Shown piece after piece: positions 1 to 7,561 of a DNA stretch of 7,669 bases. The position numbers and the translations under genes are program-made. The notes under the pieces were generated by a model. That model had not been told where the DNA came from and did no database searches. It saw only the letters and a list, made by a program, of their open reading frames with translations. Source of the stretch: Nitrospinae bacterium RIFCSPLOWO2_12_FULL_45_22 (lineage in GTDB: Bacteria; 2-12-FULL-45-22); contig MHDQ01000249.1 in the NCBI GenBank assembly GCA_001803565.1, forward strand, positions 1 through 7,669. The letters run 5' to 3'. Within the stretch, counting starts at the first letter, position 1, and every line of letters starts with the position of its first letter.

Positions 1-904
1 TAGCTATTCCCTGGATAGGCTGACCAGTTTTAGGGTCCAGGATATGGCTATAGCGTTTACCATTTAAGACAAAAAAATTCTCATAGTTGCCTGAGGTAGC
101 TACTGCCTGGTCTCTTACCTGTAGGGTACTGACAACCCGGTCCGGGACAAAAGGGTGCCGGATACCAAGATGCCAAAATTTTCTTGTGGGAGGATGTCCC
201 AGGGCAAACAGGTCTCCACCGGCATTAACCAGGGCCCGCTGTATGCCATTATTTTTCAGAACCTCAATAGCCCTGTCTACTGCATACCCTTTAGCTATAC
301 CACCCAGGTCAATCGCCATCCCAGGTAACTTCAATTTAACCCGGTTCTTTTCCTGGTCAATAAGGATGTTTTTGTAATTGACCAGGGGTAAAAGCTTGTG
401 GATTTCTTCTTCCGGAGGCATATGGCCGCTTTTCTTGTGAAAGCCCCATAATTGCACCAGGGGAGCTACCGTGATGTCAAAAGCGCCTCCACTGAGTTCT
501 GCTATCCCTATGGCCATATTAATAACCTTCAATACCTCTGGCGCTACCCTAACATAATCCCTCCCAGCTTGCTGATTGATTAAGGATAATTGGCTATCAG
601 CTTTATAATTACTCATCAATCCATCTACCCGGCTAATTGCCTGAAAAGCCAATTCTATAGCCTCTTCTTCGGGTTCCCGGCCCGCCTTGATCTCTTTGGG
701 GGAAGAGGTATCTCTAAAGACAGTAATCTCGACCATAGTACCCATCATGGGCCTAGCCCTTTCTACCTTTGACTCCTGGCTATAACCCAGAGAAAAAGGG
801 AGTATGGCCAGGCATAGAAGCCATACTCCCGCTCCCTGCCTAAATCGGCTTAGGACGGTTAAATAGATTAATACTAAGCGGATCACTATAAGACTCTTCT
901 CCAT
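1..904 (-). CDS. apbE: FAD:protein FMN transferase (ApbE family), C-terminus beyond window
   Basis: ApbE enzymes use FAD to attach FMN covalently to a Thr/Ser of exported flavoproteins, with Mg2+, outside the cytoplasm. The reverse strand reads open for 301 codons from an ATG at 904 to the window edge with no stop, so the C-terminal part is missing. Visible hallmarks are RPMMGTMVEI (51-60), GGAFDITVAPLVQLWGF (139-155), the signature IDLGGIAKGYAVD (198-210), NAGGDL (227-232), ATSGNYENFF (269-278) and SHILDPKTG (286-294), the last including the Asp expected at the metal site. The N-terminus is odd: two hydrophobic stretches (5-18 and 27-39) precede the mature domain, the second resembling a signal peptide ending near GYSQ (40-43). 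No lipobox is obvious. An in-frame TAG three codons upstream limits the start. The Shine-Dalgarno sequence is poor, and an in-frame GTG at 886 is an alternative start. It is divergent from a cluster encoding a likely substrate (3477-4019). The family call is very secure; the start is uncertain. Confidence 0.95.
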   Translation of the reverse strand, partial: MEKSLIVIRLVLIYLTVLSRFRQGAGVWLLCLAILPFSLGYSQESKVERARPMMGTMVEITVFRDTSSPKEIKAGREPEEEAIELAFQAISRVDGLMSNYKADSQLSLINQQAGRDYVRVAPEVLKVINMAIGIAELSGGAFDITVAPLVQLWGFHKKSGHMPPEEEIHKLLPLVNYKNILIDQEKNRVKLKLPGMAIDLGGIAKGYAVDRAIEVLKNNGIQRALVNAGGDLFALGHPPTRKFWHLGIRHPFVPDRVVSTLQVRDQAVATSGNYENFFVLNGKRYSHILDPKTGQPIQGIA

Positions 905-1992: not shown

Positions 1993-3408
1993 ATGCGTAG
2001 GTGGATAAGCCTGGTGATAATCTTCTTGATATTAAACCTTTCTTCAGTAATGGCTCAGGAGCTTGGGGATAAGGCTGCCAAGTTAGAACAGAATATTGAA
2101 GAGCTAAGGAAGGAGTTGGAGTCTTTAAGAGTAGAGCAGAAGGCATTGAAGGAACTGCAGGGACAACAGACCGGTGGGTTGGCAGAAGAATTGAGAAAGT
2201 TAAAGCTCGAAATATTTGCCCCCGAGGCAGAGTATAAGAGCTATACCGGATTGGGGCCGGCTGCCTCTAAGGTCTATTTTAAGGATCGAGGTCTTTCTAT
2301 TGGGGGCTATGGTGAGCTTAATTATGAGGGGTATCAACACAAGAGCAAGAAGGACCGGGCTGATGCCTCGAGGTTTGTGCTTTACACTGGCTATAAGTTT
2401 ACTGATAGGATATTGATGAATGCTGAGTTTGAATATGAACATGCTGGTATTAATAACGTAGGAGGGAGTACTGGTGGTGTTACTCCCTCGGTTTCCAGCA
2501 GTCGGAATCCTGAGGTTTATCTTGAGTTCGGTTACTTGGATTTCCTCTTACATCCTAGGTTTAACCTGAGGAGTGGCTTACTCCTTACCCCTATCGGTTT
2601 AATTAACGAGTATCATGAGCCTACAATCTTTCATGGGGTACTGAGACCGGATGTAGAAAGGATACTTATCCCCTCCACCTGGCGGGATTTAGGGGTGATG
2701 GGTTATGGTGGAATGGGAGATTTTGAGTATAAGGTGGGGCTGCTTAATGGACTCCGGTCTGATAGACTTAGCTCTTCTGACTGGATAAGAGGGGGGAGAC
2801 AGCAAGGTGCAGGGGCAAGTGCTGAGGGTCTTGCTGGCGTAGGGAGGCTTGATTACAAAGGAATCCCCGGACTAACATTAGGTGGGAGCTATTATTTTGG
2901 ACAGGCAGATTTTGGGCGCGGTGCGGATACGGATCCAATTGGCCCAGGAGAAAAGAAGGCCGATATAAACCTATGGGAGTTGCATGCGGATTATAAGTTT
3001 AAGGGTTTAGAGCTCAGGGGGCTCTTTACCCGGGGTTCTCTGGATGGGAATCGGGCTTTTGATCTCTCCCCTCCAGGAGGTGTTGGAGAGGAGGTTCAAG
3101 GATGGTATCTGGAAACGGCTTATGATCTGATGCCCCTAATCCGTGCCGGTTTAGCAATGTCTTTAACCCCTTTTATGAGATATGAAAACTATGACACCCA
3201 TGAGCAAGTTTTTTCGGGAAGAAAAAACCCCACCCTTGACCGTGAGGTCATAACCCTTGGTTTGGGCTTCAAACCTCATCCTAATGTGGTGATCAAGGCA
3301 GATTATCAATGGAGGGGTACGGACTCTAGACTTCCGGTTGGCAAGGGAGCCGGTAGGGACGAGGGTAAGATTGATCAATTTAATGTTGGTATAGGGTTTA
3401 TCTTTTAA
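1993..3408 (+). CDS. Outer-membrane beta-barrel porin with N-terminal coiled coil
   Basis: The 471-residue product has a clear Sec signal peptide (MRRW followed by a hydrophobic core, likely cleaved after SVMA, residue 21). Next comes a heptad-patterned charged stretch (about 27-57, rich in Leu, Glu and Lys) suited to a periplasmic coiled-coil trimer stalk. The rest shows alternating aromatic/polar strands typical of a barrel, starting at GLSIGGYGELNYEGY (100-114) and ending in a C-terminal Phe (FNVGIGFIF), the usual outer-membrane insertion signal. Residues about 218-240 (RPDVERILIPSTW...LGVMGYGG) resemble porins annotated as phosphate-selective O/P-like or DcaP-like. Substrate specificity cannot be read from sequence. 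The start has a strong AAGGAGG site 8 nt upstream. It is first in a rightward cluster with the FMN-binding protein, 68 nt away from that gene's preferred start, and sits directly downstream of a MITE-like insertion. Confidence 0.85.
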   Translation: MRRWISLVIIFLILNLSSVMAQELGDKAAKLEQNIEELRKELESLRVEQKALKELQGQQTGGLAEELRKLKLEIFAPEAEYKSYTGLGPAASKVYFKDRGLSIGGYGELNYEGYQHKSKKDRADASRFVLYTGYKFTDRILMNAEFEYEHAGINNVGGSTGGVTPSVSSSRNPEVYLEFGYLDFLLHPRFNLRSGLLLTPIGLINEYHEPTIFHGVLRPDVERILIPSTWRDLGVMGYGGMGDFEYKVGLLNGLRSDRLSSSDWIRGGRQQGAGASAEGLAGVGRLDYKGIPGLTLGGSYYFGQADFGRGADTDPIGPGEKKADINLWELHADYKFKGLELRGLFTRGSLDGNRAFDLSPPGGVGEEVQGWYLETAYDLMPLIRAGLAMSLTPFMRYENYDTHEQVFSGRKNPTLDREVITLGLGFKPHPNVVIKADYQWRGTDSRLPVGKGAGRDEGKIDQFNVGIGFIF

Positions 3409-3423
3409 ACTAATGATGGCTTA

Positions 3424-3457
3424 ATCTGCCTGGGTAGAAGAATCTGCCCAGGCAGAT
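3424..3457 (+). repeat. Inverted repeat/hairpin between porin and FMN-binding gene
   Basis: ATCTGCCTGGG (3424-3434) and CCCAGGCAGAT (3447-3457) are perfect 11-bp complements around a 12-nt loop. A second, mutually exclusive fold is ATCTGCC/GGCAGAT (3442-3448 and 3451-3457). No T-run follows, so it is not a typical intrinsic terminator. It may be an mRNA processing or stabilising structure between the porin and downstream genes, or a small mobile repeat. Confidence 0.7.
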
Positions 3458-3476: not shown

Positions 3477-4019
3477 GTGAAAGGCATTAGCTTTATCTTC
3501 TTTTTGGTTCTTCTGACACCTATTACTTCATCCTGGGCGGCGGTTTTTAAGTTACCCATGGAGGCAGTAAAAGAAGTCTTTCCTGAGGCCAGGGAAGTAG
3601 AAATTAAAAACATTATTTTGACTCCGGAGCAGGTGCTCAAGATAGAGAAAATTTCAAAATTAAAGATAAATGATCGGCTGGTAAGTTTCTACCTGGGAAA
3701 GAAAGGGGGCGATGTCCTTGGTTTTGCCGTCATTGATACCCATATAGTCAGGACCCAACCAGAGACCTTCCTCCTGATCATGGATAAGAGAGGAGAGGTG
3801 AAGCACGTAGAGGTGATTGCCTTTTACGAACCCTTAGAGTATCTGCTCTCCCAGAAATGGTTAAATTTATTGATCGGTAAGGGGCTAAACGACAAACTTA
3901 GGGTTAAGGTGGACCTGCCTCATGTTACCGGGGCTACCATGTCAGCAAGAGCTATAATAGAAGCAGTGAGGAAGAATCTTGCTATCTATCAAGTAGTTTT
4001 TGGAAAGGATAAACCATGA
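3477..4019 (+). CDS. Exported FMN-binding domain protein with covalent flavin site
   Basis: This is a small secreted protein of the FMN_bind (RnfG/NqrC C-terminal domain) family, in which ApbE links FMN through a phosphoester to a Thr. I prefer the GTG at 3477 (180 aa) to the ATG at 3456. AGGAGGAGGG lies just upstream of the GTG, the product then begins MKGISFIFFLVLL with a compact signal peptide (cleavage near SSWA, residue 21), and the ATG lies inside a hairpin and would add an acidic MEEEEG leader. The flavinylation motif is D146-LPHV-T151-G-A-T154, with Thr154 the predicted FMN carrier. Residues about 79-118 (DVLGFAVID...FLLIMDKRGEVKHVEVIAFYEP) match the domain core. There is no cytochrome, ferredoxin or membrane domain, so it is a solo flavin carrier. 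Its stop overlaps the next start (ATGA at 4016-4019), implying translational coupling to the membrane protein. Family call is confident; electron donor and acceptor are unknown. Confidence 0.88.
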   Translation: MKGISFIFFLVLLTPITSSWAAVFKLPMEAVKEVFPEAREVEIKNIILTPEQVLKIEKISKLKINDRLVSFYLGKKGGDVLGFAVIDTHIVRTQPETFLLIMDKRGEVKHVEVIAFYEPLEYLLSQKWLNLLIGKGLNDKLRVKVDLPHVTGATMSARAIIEAVRKNLAIYQVVFGKDKP

Positions 4020-4498
4020 AGTTTTTTCTCTCTCATAATTTGAAAAATAACTCCCATATTAAGCTCGTAATCCCCTTTTTTATCTCGTTTATAGTTCTCT
4101 TTCTGATAGGGGACTGCTTATATTCCATTAATAATCTTGGCCTGACTCCTGTATCTATAACAGACTACTATAGGGGAAATGAAGAGAAGCTTTTGGAACC
4201 AAGGGGGATAGTGTTAATCCTTGAGGAAGTCCATATAAGGTCATTCCTCTTTGGATTTATGCTACTTTCCTTGTCCAGTCTTATATTGCAGACCAATATA
4301 AGCCCCATAAGTAAAAAGATATTAATTATTACCTCCTTTACTAGTGCCCTGATGGATTCGGTAGGAGGAATATTTATCGCCTACCTCAATTCCATCTTTG
4401 CTTACCTGAAGATATTATCTCTTCTGGGCCTATACATTTCCTTAACCATAATGATCCTGATCATAATGGCCTACCTCTGGGGAGAAGAGGAGGGATAG
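4016..4498 (+). CDS. Four-helix integral membrane protein, first of a paralogous pair
   Basis: I do not recognise this 160-residue family. Hydrophobicity suggests four transmembrane helices: about 17-37, 74-92, 100-123 and 130-154. A loop of about 35 residues follows helix 1 and contains a TPVSITDYYRGNEE segment (44-57). Helix 2 begins with EEVH (His73), and helix 3 carries ALMDSVGG (Asp114). The next gene has the same helix plan and matching motifs at equivalent places, so the two are probable paralogues acting together. The start codon overlaps the stop of the FMN-binding gene, so both are likely made in step. A role as membrane partner of the exported flavoprotein (anchoring, electron transfer or quinone contact) is inferred from context only. 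Confidence 0.8.
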   Translation: MKFFLSHNLKNNSHIKLVIPFFISFIVLFLIGDCLYSINNLGLTPVSITDYYRGNEEKLLEPRGIVLILEEVHIRSFLFGFMLLSLSSLILQTNISPISKKILIITSFTSALMDSVGGIFIAYLNSIFAYLKILSLLGLYISLTIMILIIMAYLWGEEEG

Positions 4499-4501
4499 AG
4501 A

Positions 4502-4960
4502 ATGACTAAAGAGTCCTTACGGATAATATTGTTCTTTTTCACCATTTTCTTGATAGTTCAAGCCCTGAGTGGCATATCTCTTTTTGTGGTCAAGATAGGG
4601 TATAATCCTGCGCATATAGCAGAGTATTTCCTGGGATCAGAAGATGAATTTATCAAGGCCAAGAGCTTTTGGGGACTTCTGGAGGTCGCTGTTCCGCACC
4701 TAGTTGGGATAAGTATTTATATCCTGGTTATGGGGCATTTCCTTTTTCTCTTTCCCCTCAAGAAAGGACTTATCGTCAGTGTCACTTATTTGGCTTCCTT
4801 AGGTGATGTGCTAAGTGGTTTCTTAATAAGATATGGCGGGGCTTTTTTTTCTCCTTTTAAGATTTTATTCTTTGTCCTCTTTGAGCTAACAATTTGTTAT
4901 TTCATCGGGATGTTAGTGATCGCACTTTTTCAAGATAAGTTTTTCCCCGATAGGGTTTAA
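4502..4960 (+). CDS. Four-helix integral membrane protein, second of a paralogous pair
   Basis: This 152-residue protein belongs to no family I recognise. Predicted helices lie at about 7-31, 60-85, 88-110 and 118-144. It parallels the upstream protein: NPAHIAEYFLGSEDE (35-49) against TPVSITDYYRGNEE, His66 at the start of helix 2 against His73, and SLGDVLSG (Asp102) in helix 3 against ALMDSVGG. A second His79 lies 13 residues after His66 in the same helix, a spacing seen in b-type cytochromes, but the partner protein lacks it, so haem binding is only a possibility. AGGAGGG sits 7-8 nt before the ATG, and the gap to the upstream gene is 3 nt. The gene ends 13 nt from the convergent Fur-family gene with no visible intrinsic terminator between them. 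Confidence 0.8.
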   Translation: MTKESLRIILFFFTIFLIVQALSGISLFVVKIGYNPAHIAEYFLGSEDEFIKAKSFWGLLEVAVPHLVGISIYILVMGHFLFLFPLKKGLIVSVTYLASLGDVLSGFLIRYGGAFFSPFKILFFVLFELTICYFIGMLVIALFQDKFFPDRV

Positions 4961-4973
4961 TCATTTCGTTACT

Positions 4974-5396
4974 TCAGCGGCATTTGGTGCAATAGCCGAA
5001 AATCTGCAAGCAGTGGGAATCAGGGGTAAAATCATAATCTGTGCAGACTCGTTCTTGGATCTCTTCTATGGTAGGGTTGCTAAATTCCAGCACACTACCG
5101 CATTTAAGGCAGACCAGATGGTCATGGTGTTTATGACCATAGGTATGTTCGTAGTGGGTATGCTCTTCCCCGAAGCTAATCTTTCTTACCAGTTGGCTAT
5201 TTACTAAGAGCTCCAGGGTGCGATAGATAGTAGCCCGCGATACCCGGATGTCTTTTTTCTTTAACCGGAAGAGGAGGTCATCGGCTTCAAAATGATCATG
5301 GGAGGCAAATACTTCCTCTAATATGGCCTTCCTCTCCGGAGTCCATTTCATCTTCTTCTCTGCCAGGAACTTATGGAAGAGCTCAATGTTTTCCAA
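4974..5396 (-). CDS. Fur-family metal-responsive transcriptional regulator
   Basis: At 140 aa it has the standard Fur/PerR/Zur length and layout. A winged-helix DNA-binding domain (about 15-75) contains the recognition helix VSRATIYRTLELL (52-64), and a C-terminal dimerisation domain follows. The structural zinc site is C96-x2-C99 with C136-x2-C139. The linker is unusually His-rich: H79, H81, H84, H88, H90, H91 and H93 within 15 residues, covering the expected regulatory-metal ligands. Whether it senses Fe, Zn, Mn or peroxide cannot be decided. The start is TTG at 5396; no ATG or GTG is available before Met16, and the length fits the family. A GGGGG tract about 10 nt upstream may serve as a weak ribosome site. 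It lies 5 nt after the activase stop, so the two genes are probably co-transcribed and translation of this one may depend on the upstream gene. Confidence 0.93.
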   Translation of the reverse strand: MENIELFHKFLAEKKMKWTPERKAILEEVFASHDHFEADDLLFRLKKKDIRVSRATIYRTLELLVNSQLVRKISFGEEHTHYEHTYGHKHHDHLVCLKCGSVLEFSNPTIEEIQERVCTDYDFTPDSHCLQIFGYCTKCR

Positions 5397-5401
5397 AAAG
5401 A

Positions 5402-6181
5402 TTAGCCCCCAAGTTCTTGTTGGGCAAAGAGGGCCGCCCCTAAGGCGCCAAATAGTTGAGGATCGGTGGTGTAGGTAGGAATCTTGGTCTTTATCTTGTC
5501 CTCAATCATCTTAACTACCCCGATATTCTTGGCTACCCCACCCGAGATCACTACGTCTTCTTCAATCCCTATTCGATAAAGCATAGATACCAGCCGGTTA
5601 GCTACAGAATGGTTTATACCAGCCAGGATATCTATCGGGTCTTTCTTCTCGGCAATGAGGGAGATAACCTCTGACTCGGCAAAGACACTGCATTGGCTGC
5701 TGATCTCAACTATCTCTTTGGCTTTGAGAGAAATCTTACCCATTTCTTCCAGCTTTACATCTAAGATGCGAGCCATAGTCTCCAGGAACTTGCCGGTGCC
5801 AGCCGCACACTTATCATTCAGGACAAAGTCTTTTACTACGCCATGCTTATCTATCTTGATTACCTTGGCATCCTGACCGCCGATATCAATCACGGTGCGG
5901 GCTTTATTATTGTTCCAGAAGGCCCCTTTACCGTGGCAAGCGATCTCAGTAACTATCTTTTTTGCAAAAGGTATATCTACCCTCCCATAGCCGGTACCAA
6001 TTGTTAGATTGATATCGTTCATGGTAACGTTTTTCCCTTTCAGAGCCTTTTCCATGGCATTCTTAGCCGTCACATCTGACAGTGGGTCATTAGGAACGAT
6101 ACTGTGGGCAACAATCTTGCCATCCTGCAAAATGACTACTTTTCCTGAGGTTGAGCCTACATCACAGCCTGCAACTAACAT
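5402..6181 (-). CDS. BadF/HgdC-type CoA-dehydratase activase (ATPase, 4Fe-4S)
   Basis: This family injects a high-energy electron, driven by ATP, into 2-hydroxyacyl-CoA dehydratases or benzoyl-CoA reductases. The ASKHA fold is clear: phosphate loop CDVGSTSGK (6-14), DIGGQD (99-104) and the adenosine motif ISGGVAKN (212-219). Cys125 (NDKCAAGTGKF) and Cys164 (SSQCSVFAESEV) are the conserved ligands of the single [4Fe-4S] cluster that bridges the homodimer. The 259-aa length equals stand-alone activators such as HgdC. I chose ATG at 6181 over the GTG at 6187 because GGAGG (6190-6194) lies 8 nt from the ATG but only 2 nt from the GTG. No dehydratase subunit is in the window: downstream is a Fur-family regulator and upstream a divergent kinase-like gene. 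The target is therefore encoded elsewhere or is atypical. Confidence 0.95.
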   Translation of the reverse strand: MLVAGCDVGSTSGKVVILQDGKIVAHSIVPNDPLSDVTAKNAMEKALKGKNVTMNDINLTIGTGYGRVDIPFAKKIVTEIACHGKGAFWNNNKARTVIDIGGQDAKVIKIDKHGVVKDFVLNDKCAAGTGKFLETMARILDVKLEEMGKISLKAKEIVEISSQCSVFAESEVISLIAEKKDPIDILAGINHSVANRLVSMLYRIGIEEDVVISGGVAKNIGVVKMIEDKIKTKIPTYTTDPQLFGALGAALFAQQELGG

Positions 6182-6250
6182 TCTCACTTCCTCCTATAAA
6201 GACTGGATTCTAAATCATTGATAAATTAGCGTTTAGGGAAATTCCCTCCT

Positions 6251-6453: not shown

Positions 6454-6482
6454 TTGACAAGCAGTTTCAAGTCGGTAAATAA
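6454..6482 (+). promoter_or_regulatory. Promoter candidate for the kinase-like gene
   Basis: A perfect TTGACA (6454-6459) directly follows the right 15-bp repeat. After 17 nt lies AAATAA (6477-6482), a weak -10; TAAATA at 16 nt is equally possible. Transcription would start near 6489, downstream of the ATG at 6482, supporting ATG 6524 as the true start. Confidence 0.4.
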
Positions 6483-6523
6483 TGGCCCATCAAGGAGGAG
6501 ATAGCTCTACCAGTGGGGGTGTT

Positions 6524-7561
6524 ATGTCTCAATCTAGTTATTCCGGTGAGTCCTTAAGGAATTTTAGTTGGTCTCTATTACATAAAGGGAGATGGGCCCA
6601 GGCGGACGTCTATCTGATCCCATTTAACGGTAGACTAGCGGTGGTAAAAGATTATCGTTCCCGTCGCCGCCTGATAAGGTTTATGGCAAGGGTTATTTTG
6701 ATCGAGAGGGAAATAGCTATTTATAAGCGATTAGAGGGGATTTTAGGAGTTCCGGAGGTTTATGGCAAGTTGGGTAAATATGACTTTATCCTGGAGTATA
6801 AAGAAGGTAAGACCCTTTCTAAATTCCAGCCCGGCCAATTGCCGGCCCAGTTTTTTGATCAGTTAGAGGGTATAATTGGACAGATGCACCAGCGAGGGGT
6901 AGTTCATTGTGATATTAGGCGGAAAAATGTACTGGTATCGTCAGAATATATGCCCTGGGTGATAGATTTTAATACTGGTTTTTATAAAAAGAAGGGCTAT
7001 AATCTTATCAACCGGCTATTTTTCCCTATATTTTGTCGCCTGGATCGGCAGGCCTTTTTGAAGTTAAAAAGTTCTTTAGCCTCCCAACTCATTACTGACA
7101 AAGAGCGAGTTTGTTTAGAAAAGGAGATTTTTTTACATCAGTTAGGCAGGTGGCTCAGGAAAAGGGTCTATCGGAAGGTAAAACGACAATGGAAAAAGAG
7201 AAACTCCCTCTGTCCCCCAGCTATTCATGCCTGGGAAAAGGGGTATACTTCTGATCCGTATAATATCTTGTTAAACCTGGTAAGGGGTCTAATGTTACGG
7301 GGATATATCTTAGAAAAGATCATAAAAATTGGTATGAGCCTGAATATCAATCATGGGGTAATAATAAGAGACGAAAAGGGCTTGATAGATTATATAAAGG
7401 CTTGCTACCGACAGGTATTAGGAGAGTATAAAGAAAAAACCTGTGCTGACTATTTTTGCTTATTTCTAAAGGAACAAGCTTTCTGTAAACGAGAACTTTG
7501 TCATTGTGGATGGAGAGAGTCCTTCCAAGATTCCTTTCGCCCTATTAGGGACGACTATTAA
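6524..7561 (+). CDS. Protein-kinase-fold protein, RIO/Kdo-kinase-like, with Cys-rich tail
   Basis: The first roughly 155 residues form a compact kinase fold: ATP-anchoring Lys42 (AVVKDY), helix-C Glu (EREIAIYKRL, 61-70), hinge ILEYKEGKTL (89-98), catalytic loop HCDIRRKN (H128, D130, N135) and metal-binding D148-F-N. The short lobes and HxD-x4-N loop resemble RIO or lipopolysaccharide Kdo/heptose kinases more than eukaryote-type Ser/Thr kinases, so a sugar, lipid or protein substrate is possible. The C-terminal roughly 190 residues are basic (KRVYRKVKRQWKKR, 213-226) and unfamiliar, ending in five cysteines (C307, C312, C321, C326, C328). I chose ATG 6524 (345 aa) because a promoter appears to overlap the in-frame ATG at 6482 and that codon has no ribosome site. 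However, GGGGG sits only 4 nt from 6524, and an AAGGAGGAG at 6492 serves neither codon, so the start is unsettled (359 aa from 6482). It appears monocistronic here. Confidence 0.82.
   Translation: MSQSSYSGESLRNFSWSLLHKGRWAQADVYLIPFNGRLAVVKDYRSRRRLIRFMARVILIEREIAIYKRLEGILGVPEVYGKLGKYDFILEYKEGKTLSKFQPGQLPAQFFDQLEGIIGQMHQRGVVHCDIRRKNVLVSSEYMPWVIDFNTGFYKKKGYNLINRLFFPIFCRLDRQAFLKLKSSLASQLITDKERVCLEKEIFLHQLGRWLRKRVYRKVKRQWKKRNSLCPPAIHAWEKGYTSDPYNILLNLVRGLMLRGYILEKIIKIGMSLNINHGVIIRDEKGLIDYIKACYRQVLGEYKEKTCADYFCLFLKEQAFCKRELCHCGWRESFQDSFRPIRDDY

Follow-up and report, generated by a model that had tools for sequence, protein, structure and literature searches.

Genes for an outer-membrane porin, an exported FMN_bind protein and a small four-helix membrane protein (4-TM) form, with apbE, a unit that is widespread among bacteria. 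Its sequence features and gene neighbourhood suggest a flavin-based redox system that acts on iron outside the cytoplasm and would reduce Fe(III) in the periplasm before uptake; we put the probability of this reading at about one half. We describe the unit as it occurs in a Nitrospinae bacterium, on a stretch of 7,669 nt (the window) that is the entire contig C249 of a 321-contig, 3.67-Mb assembly.

Gene organization of the window

The plus strand carries, in this order, the porin gene, the FMN_bind gene, two 4-TM genes (4TM-A and 4TM-B) and a last, kinase-like gene, and apbE occupies the left contig end on the minus strand. Between 4TM-B and the kinase-like gene, the minus strand encodes a regulator of the Fur family and an activase of the BadF/HgdC type. 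The features are as follows.

2..904, minus strand: apbE (FAD:protein FMN transferase; Pfam ApbE, E = 6.3e-78)
1827-1985: palindrome-rich stretch directly upstream of the porin gene, resembling a mobile or REP-type element
1993..3408, plus strand: outer-membrane porin, 471 aa (AF2 model, Foldseek, family alignment)
3477..4019, plus strand: exported FMN_bind protein, 180 aa (signal peptide; Pfam FMN_bind, E = 0.0014; RnfG profile match)
3927..3938, plus strand: codons of the TGAT flavinylation motif, with Thr154 the predicted FMN site (direct sequence reading)
4016..4498, plus strand: 4TM-A, 160-aa four-helix membrane protein (sequence, hydrophobicity, alignment)
4232..4240, plus strand: 4TM-A codons for His73-Ile-Arg75, HxH in 67 of 67 relatives (sequence and conservation)
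4502..4960, plus strand: 4TM-B, 152-aa paralogue of 4TM-A (sequence, hydrophobicity, alignment)
4697..4699, plus strand: 4TM-B codon for His66, equivalent of His75 (sequence and conservation)
4736..4738, plus strand: 4TM-B codon for His79, equivalent of His88 (sequence and conservation)
4974..5396, minus strand: Fur-family regulator, tail to tail with 4TM-B (Pfam FUR, E = 1.3e-32)
5402-6187, minus strand: BadF/HgdC-type acyl-CoA dehydratase activase, adjoining the Fur gene (TIGR00241, E = 1e-80)
6482-7561, plus strand: kinase-like protein (weak RIO/Bud32/APH/Kdo-kinase matches)

An earlier note on this DNA had described a divergent apbE gene and a porin gene preceding a tightly packed set. Both genes are present; apbE, whose product has an N-terminal signal or anchor, is incomplete because the contig end cuts the gene. 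The coordinates also confirm the packing, in that the start codon of 4TM-A overlaps the stop codon of the FMN_bind gene (4017-4019) as ATGA and 4TM-B begins 3 nt past the stop codon of 4TM-A. The palindrome-rich stretch was rejected as a dispersed repeat, since it is present in a single copy in the assembly. A scan of the window gave no Rfam match, and scans for promoters and terminators gave scores no better than those of shuffled sequence. The activase is a sign of anaerobic metabolism.

FMN_bind protein and porin

The FMN_bind gene starts with a GTG at position 3477, with an AGGAGG-like site immediately 5'; an in-frame ATG at 3456 is an alternative start that would give a protein of 187 aa. 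As the earlier note had read, the protein has a hydrophobic signal peptide, which ends in SSWAA, and a TGAT motif, which lies within VDLPHVTGAT and corresponds to residues 151-154. The match of the window protein alone to Pfam FMN_bind was slightly below the gathering score (19.7 bits vs. 22), and a profile built from eight close relatives matched RnfG of the Rnf complex among solved structures (E = 3e-9). The alignment shows [STAG]G[AS][TS] at the TGAT position in most relatives. Both an exported FMN_bind protein with an [S/T]GA[S/T] motif and a co-encoded ApbE (904..2) are present, as in ApbE-flavinylated extracytosolic redox systems, and the protein is predicted to be flavinylated by ApbE at Thr154. 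It resembles RnfG and NqrC in its exported FMN_bind domain with a putatively flavinylated Thr; unlike them, it is encoded with a 4-TM protein as its partner, and the window holds no other Rnf or Nqr gene, as had been noted before. One other FMN_bind protein of the same assembly, and only one, exceeded the Pfam cut-off, a 491-aa protein on contig C302 (L001 1438-2913, minus strand).

In the AF2 model of the porin (pLDDT 81), about 16 strands form a barrel and the N-terminal region is helical and coiled-coil-like; Foldseek matched the model to trimeric porins of the OmpU/OmpF type (best E = 1e-14). Judged by this model, it would be a general porin with an outer-membrane barrel of about 16 strands. 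It is 35-46% identical to the porins of other clusters in the family alignment. The porins of the module fit no curated family, and their family, present in 41 of 280 genomes, is broader than the 4-TM family.

Conservation of the gene cluster

When five close 4-TM relatives were used as queries against 84,980 species genomes, 67 loci were retrieved. An FMN_bind gene is located directly upstream of the 4-TM gene at all 67, a homologue of the window porin lies upstream of the FMN gene at 60, and apbE was found inside the fetched flank at 31, being divergent as in the window in Dadabacteria. Only the 4-TM protein served to find these loci, and yet the order recurs at every one of them; the arrangement is far too consistent to be due to chance. 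Loci without a porin or apbE are partly explained by contig ends, yet L078 and L090 have long upstream flanks and no porin match. The loci span Methylococcaceae (methanotrophs), Methylomirabilota, Rokubacteria, Tectomicrobia, Myxococcota and other deltaproteobacteria, Dadabacteria, Nitrospiria (Nitrospirota), Elusimicrobia and Calditrichota, and the hosts include the cultured methanotrophs Methylovulum psychrotolerans and Methylotetracoccus oryzae. Linkage of the 4-TM gene to FMN_bind, which the earlier note had made the mark of its proposal, is thus conserved across phyla, together with the porin and often ApbE.

In a broad sample of 289 other bacterial genomes, a profile built from 4TM-A and 4TM-B detected the family in 18. 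An FMN_bind gene, apbE or both lie beside the 4-TM gene in 14 of these distant genomes, and neither was found close by in the other four. The collection includes one other genome of the window's phylum (68% complete), in which the 4-TM gene was not found. Contigs labelled Klebsiella pneumoniae (L073) and Methyloversatilis universalis MAG (L050) grouped with Myxococcota and Methylococcaceae in the 4-TM tree and, given these positions, are probably mis-binned.

The 4-TM family

Scans of 20 members against Pfam and NCBIfam yielded no model that fits the family, with only stray matches of single members, and a sequence search of the PDB with a 20-row profile gave nothing better than E = 0.2. The model of the M. 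psychrotolerans protein (pLDDT 90, pTM 0.81) consists of four long helices and a short helix at residues 45-53. Foldseek found no significant match to it among solved structures; a second inspection returned generic helix bundles only, from which novelty of the fold does not follow. The 4-TM proteins, whose family the earlier note could not name, thus matched no known family in Pfam, NCBIfam, the PDB profile search or Foldseek. In the Pfam and NCBIfam scans of the 20 members, no match to a PepSY-, MsrQ-, NapH-, DsbD- or NQR/RNF-like membrane component was obtained, and profile searches and Foldseek gave no significant match, in sequence or fold, to known cytochromes.

The family signature is YYxGSE…P(R/K)SY…LLExxHxHxF…LTHL. 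E70, H73 and H75 are invariant across the 67 relatives, H88 and W119 are conserved in 66 of 66 covering rows, and R122 in 64 of 66. The three His residues all lie on helix 2, 13-15 residues apart, and the other helices carry no conserved His; a bis-His heme on a 4-TM protein would therefore need a dimer. These positions are compatible with a b-type cytochrome, and the 4-TM protein is possibly heme-binding. The ferrosome cytochrome FezC has been modelled with heme sites formed by homodimerization (PMC11334425), the arrangement that we propose for the 4-TM family, in which heme itself is inferred. The 4-TM proteins are like the DUF4405/FezC proteins (Huang et al. 2024, PMC11334425) in being small membrane proteins with His residues and a link to ApbE clusters or iron storage; unlike DUF4405, which has six helices and four central His, they have four long helices and three conserved His, and no Pfam match to DUF4405.

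The same residues could instead bind iron or another metal. The 4-TM protein would then be a metal-binding or metal-transport protein, with ExxHxH and the third His as ligands, and the flavin protein would act on the delivered metal. The grouping of these invariant residues on one helix, the lack of a relation to known cytochromes in the searches made and the iron-transport context described below all agree with such a role. However, the 4-TM gene is kept in clusters that already hold FeoB or FTR1, and in related clusters a PepSY_TM or four-His protein takes its place, a replacement that fits an electron-transfer role; we consider a metal-handling 4-TM protein quite improbable.

The tandem 4-TM pair

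4TM-A and 4TM-B have four hydrophobic stretches each and are 18% identical. Each is the only second match of the other in the genome (E = 7e-5 and 1.5e-5), which bears out their description as paralogues. A second 4-TM gene is absent from all 67 relatives, which are single-copy, so the tandem pair looks like a lineage-specific duplication. A tree in which A and B were constrained as one clade was not rejected (p = 0.63) and had a slightly higher likelihood; their monophyly fits a duplication in this lineage without proving it. The earlier proposal of a flavin redox module built around a membrane pair must be revised accordingly: the module, with its porin, is well founded, but the pair is not the rule. 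A plasmid search with 4TM-B gave no match.

A and B are the only members without HxH in the alignment with the 67 relatives. 4TM-A keeps His73 and has Arg75 and Ser88 at the other two His positions, whereas 4TM-B has Val64 at the His73 position and keeps His66 and His79, the equivalents of His75 and His88. Such complementary loss is the pattern expected of a heterodimer derived from a homodimer, with rapid decay as a live rival, and these substitutions make it probable that the two copies work together as a heterodimer. In an alignment prepared for a fused A-B chain, homologues covered the A half only. More tentatively, the 4-TM family might be a minimal transmembrane cytochrome, a homodimer with cofactor sites formed by the helix-2 His of both subunits, which became duplicated here into an obligate A/B heterodimer, each copy losing the His kept by the other and one of the two symmetric sites surviving; we rate this full scenario as speculative. 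The pair is a natural experiment on which His matter.

That A and B lack most of the conserved His counts against the iron and heme model in the window itself, and the pair may instead be decaying in this genome, having lost its conserved His after duplication, with a module that no longer works as it does elsewhere. Such decay would account for the tree branches of A and B (4.6 and 7.0 changes per column vs. a median of 0.39) and for the loss of W119 from both copies and of R122 from A. There is also a precedent for a broken second copy, a frame-broken piece in an FTR1/MacB-type cluster of genome G058 (L039 7428-7655, minus strand). Yet both frames are intact and tightly packed, G54, E56, E70, K100 and K132 are retained by both copies, the three His losses are complementary rather than common to the two, and the porin and FMN gene are still well conserved; we regard decay as unlikely.

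Iron-gene neighbourhood and proposed function

Genes for FTR1, FeoB, Fur or DtxR were found within about 7 kb of the cluster at 13 of 67 loci and in none of 40 random 14.5-kb regions, drawn from the survey genomes and searched in the same way (Fisher p = 0.002); the 67 loci are not all independent, and the iron-positive ones belong partly to one clade (Dadabacteria), yet to several lineages overall. Dadabacteria loci encode an FTR1 with a cytochrome c domain, FTR1 also lies near the cluster in Rokubacteria (L048), and Fur is nearby in Myxococcota and other deltaproteobacteria. In Nitrospiria (L099), Fur, FTR1, FeoB and a DtxR–FeoA protein are followed by porin–FMN–4TM. Two genomes of one family encode an FMN_bind–ApbE fusion (L043 5267-6766, L044 7554-9272) directly upstream of the 4-TM gene, with DtxR and FeoB consecutively thereafter. 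Iron genes are close to the 4-TM cluster in six of the 18 further genomes, among whose distant members FTR1 occurs in G058, with an FtrD-like domain and a MacB-type permease, and in G289, with an FMN_bind-ApbE protein. Because Fur occurs near the cluster in other lineages too (at 5 of 67 loci, as well as in G084 and G230), the Fur-family protein of the window is a possible regulator of the module.

This recurrent linkage to iron transporters and regulators points to iron reduction and uptake. The earlier note had proposed a possible link of the module to an unspecified substrate entering through the porin; the iron-uptake neighbours now point instead to iron reduction or assimilation. We propose that small iron species would enter the periplasm via the porin and that the FMN_bind protein, once ApbE had attached FMN to Thr154, would reduce Fe(III) to Fe(II) there. 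With the quinol pool or the cytoplasm as their source, electrons would reach the FMN by way of the 4-TM protein of the inner membrane, probably via heme held by the helix-2 His of a dimer. FeoB or FTR1, controlled by Fur/DtxR, would then take up the Fe(II). In the window, an ancestral single 4-TM gene would have been duplicated to give the probable A/B heterodimer. The genome encodes FeoB elsewhere than in the window, as well as cytochrome c assembly proteins and cytochromes c, and the idea of an organism without heme was rejected on the latter ground.

No iron gene is present inside the flank at 54 of 67 loci, and at some of these loci the neighbours are MauG/CCP, CDF or ABC genes. The cluster might thus encode a general extracytoplasmic electron-transfer chain. 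In such a chain, electrons would move between the quinone pool and the 4-TM protein, and the FMN protein would either supply an acceptor in the periplasm, for instance a diheme peroxidase, or respire a substrate that enters through the porin. The MauG/CCP-type diheme genes within or next to the cluster at six Methylococcaceae loci (L069 5056-6258, L052, L054, L060, L071 and L075), another preceding the equivalent cluster in Ideonella, and the small CxxCH protein encoded beside the porin at the position of the FMN gene in three genomes would suit a chain of this kind. It explains less well why iron genes recur in several lineages and inside the operon itself, and no recurrent respiratory reductase was found in the neighbourhoods; we consider such a chain possible but doubtful and prefer the iron module.

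Relation to known flavinylation systems

ApbE-flavinylated extracytosolic redox systems are already known, and the membrane electron-transfer classes associated with flavinylation comprise NapH-like, MsrQ-like, PepSY-like, DsbD and NQR/RNF-like components (Meheust et al. 2021, PMC8238504). The present module shares with them ApbE, an exported [S/T]GA[S/T] substrate, a clustered membrane component and recurrent links to iron transporters or Fur. It differs in its conserved porin and in its 4-TM membrane component, which lies outside the five classes and has no Pfam or NCBIfam model. Distant 4-TM members, with FTR1 and FMN_bind, recall the P19-FTR1 iron clusters that contain an FMN-binding gene (PMC8238504); unlike those clusters, the core members consist of porin-FMN_bind-4TM, and the examined loci yielded no P19 gene.

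The main texts of PMC8238504 and PMC11334425 name classes that include neither the 4-TM family nor the porin, and a literature search beyond the flavinylation surveys, partial in coverage and without supplements, found no description of the cluster. As far as these texts go, the new elements are the 4-TM membrane family and the dedicated porin, which extend the known set of flavinylation-based periplasmic redox systems by an undescribed membrane component and its porin and suggest a way, accessible to experiment, in which iron may be reduced in the periplasm and taken up.

Related clusters without a 4-TM gene

The same porin family also occurs without a 4-TM gene, beside FeoB in G010 and after Fur and ApbE in G084. 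In G230 the genes are ordered Fur–FeoB–PepSY_TM–porin–FMN_bind, with a weak match for PepSY_TM (E = 0.0008). PepSY-like and P19 clusters have been tied to iron (PMC8238504), and since the PepSY class is linked there to iron reduction, we take the G230 cluster as support for the iron reading. The porin lies near a DtxR-type regulator and is followed by a small CxxCH protein in G172 and G025, and such a protein also follows the porin in G144. The CxxCH genes in the place of the FMN gene are L167 5487-5882, L169 5635-6015 and L170 6637-7023, a possible swap of heme for flavin; exchange of flavin and cytochrome components has been described for flavinylation systems (PMC8238504).

Plasmids of alpha- and betaproteobacteria carry an equivalent cluster (L028, L027, L131, L132 and L163), composed of outer-membrane-protein, FMN_bind and ApbE genes, whose last gene encodes a membrane protein of about 145 aa with four conserved His; we count this protein, too, in favour of the iron reading. 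Homology of this protein to the 4-TM family, suggested by a common YYxGSEE-like stretch, was unsupported by hhalign (probability 5.6%), and the one four-His protein scanned (P0002) matched no Pfam family. These alternative clusters indicate that the variable part of the unit is the membrane component (4-TM, four-His or PepSY_TM) and, seemingly, sometimes the soluble carrier (flavin or heme). In Methylocystis heyeri, the four-His gene is followed by genes for a multicopper oxidase and ferritin-like proteins.
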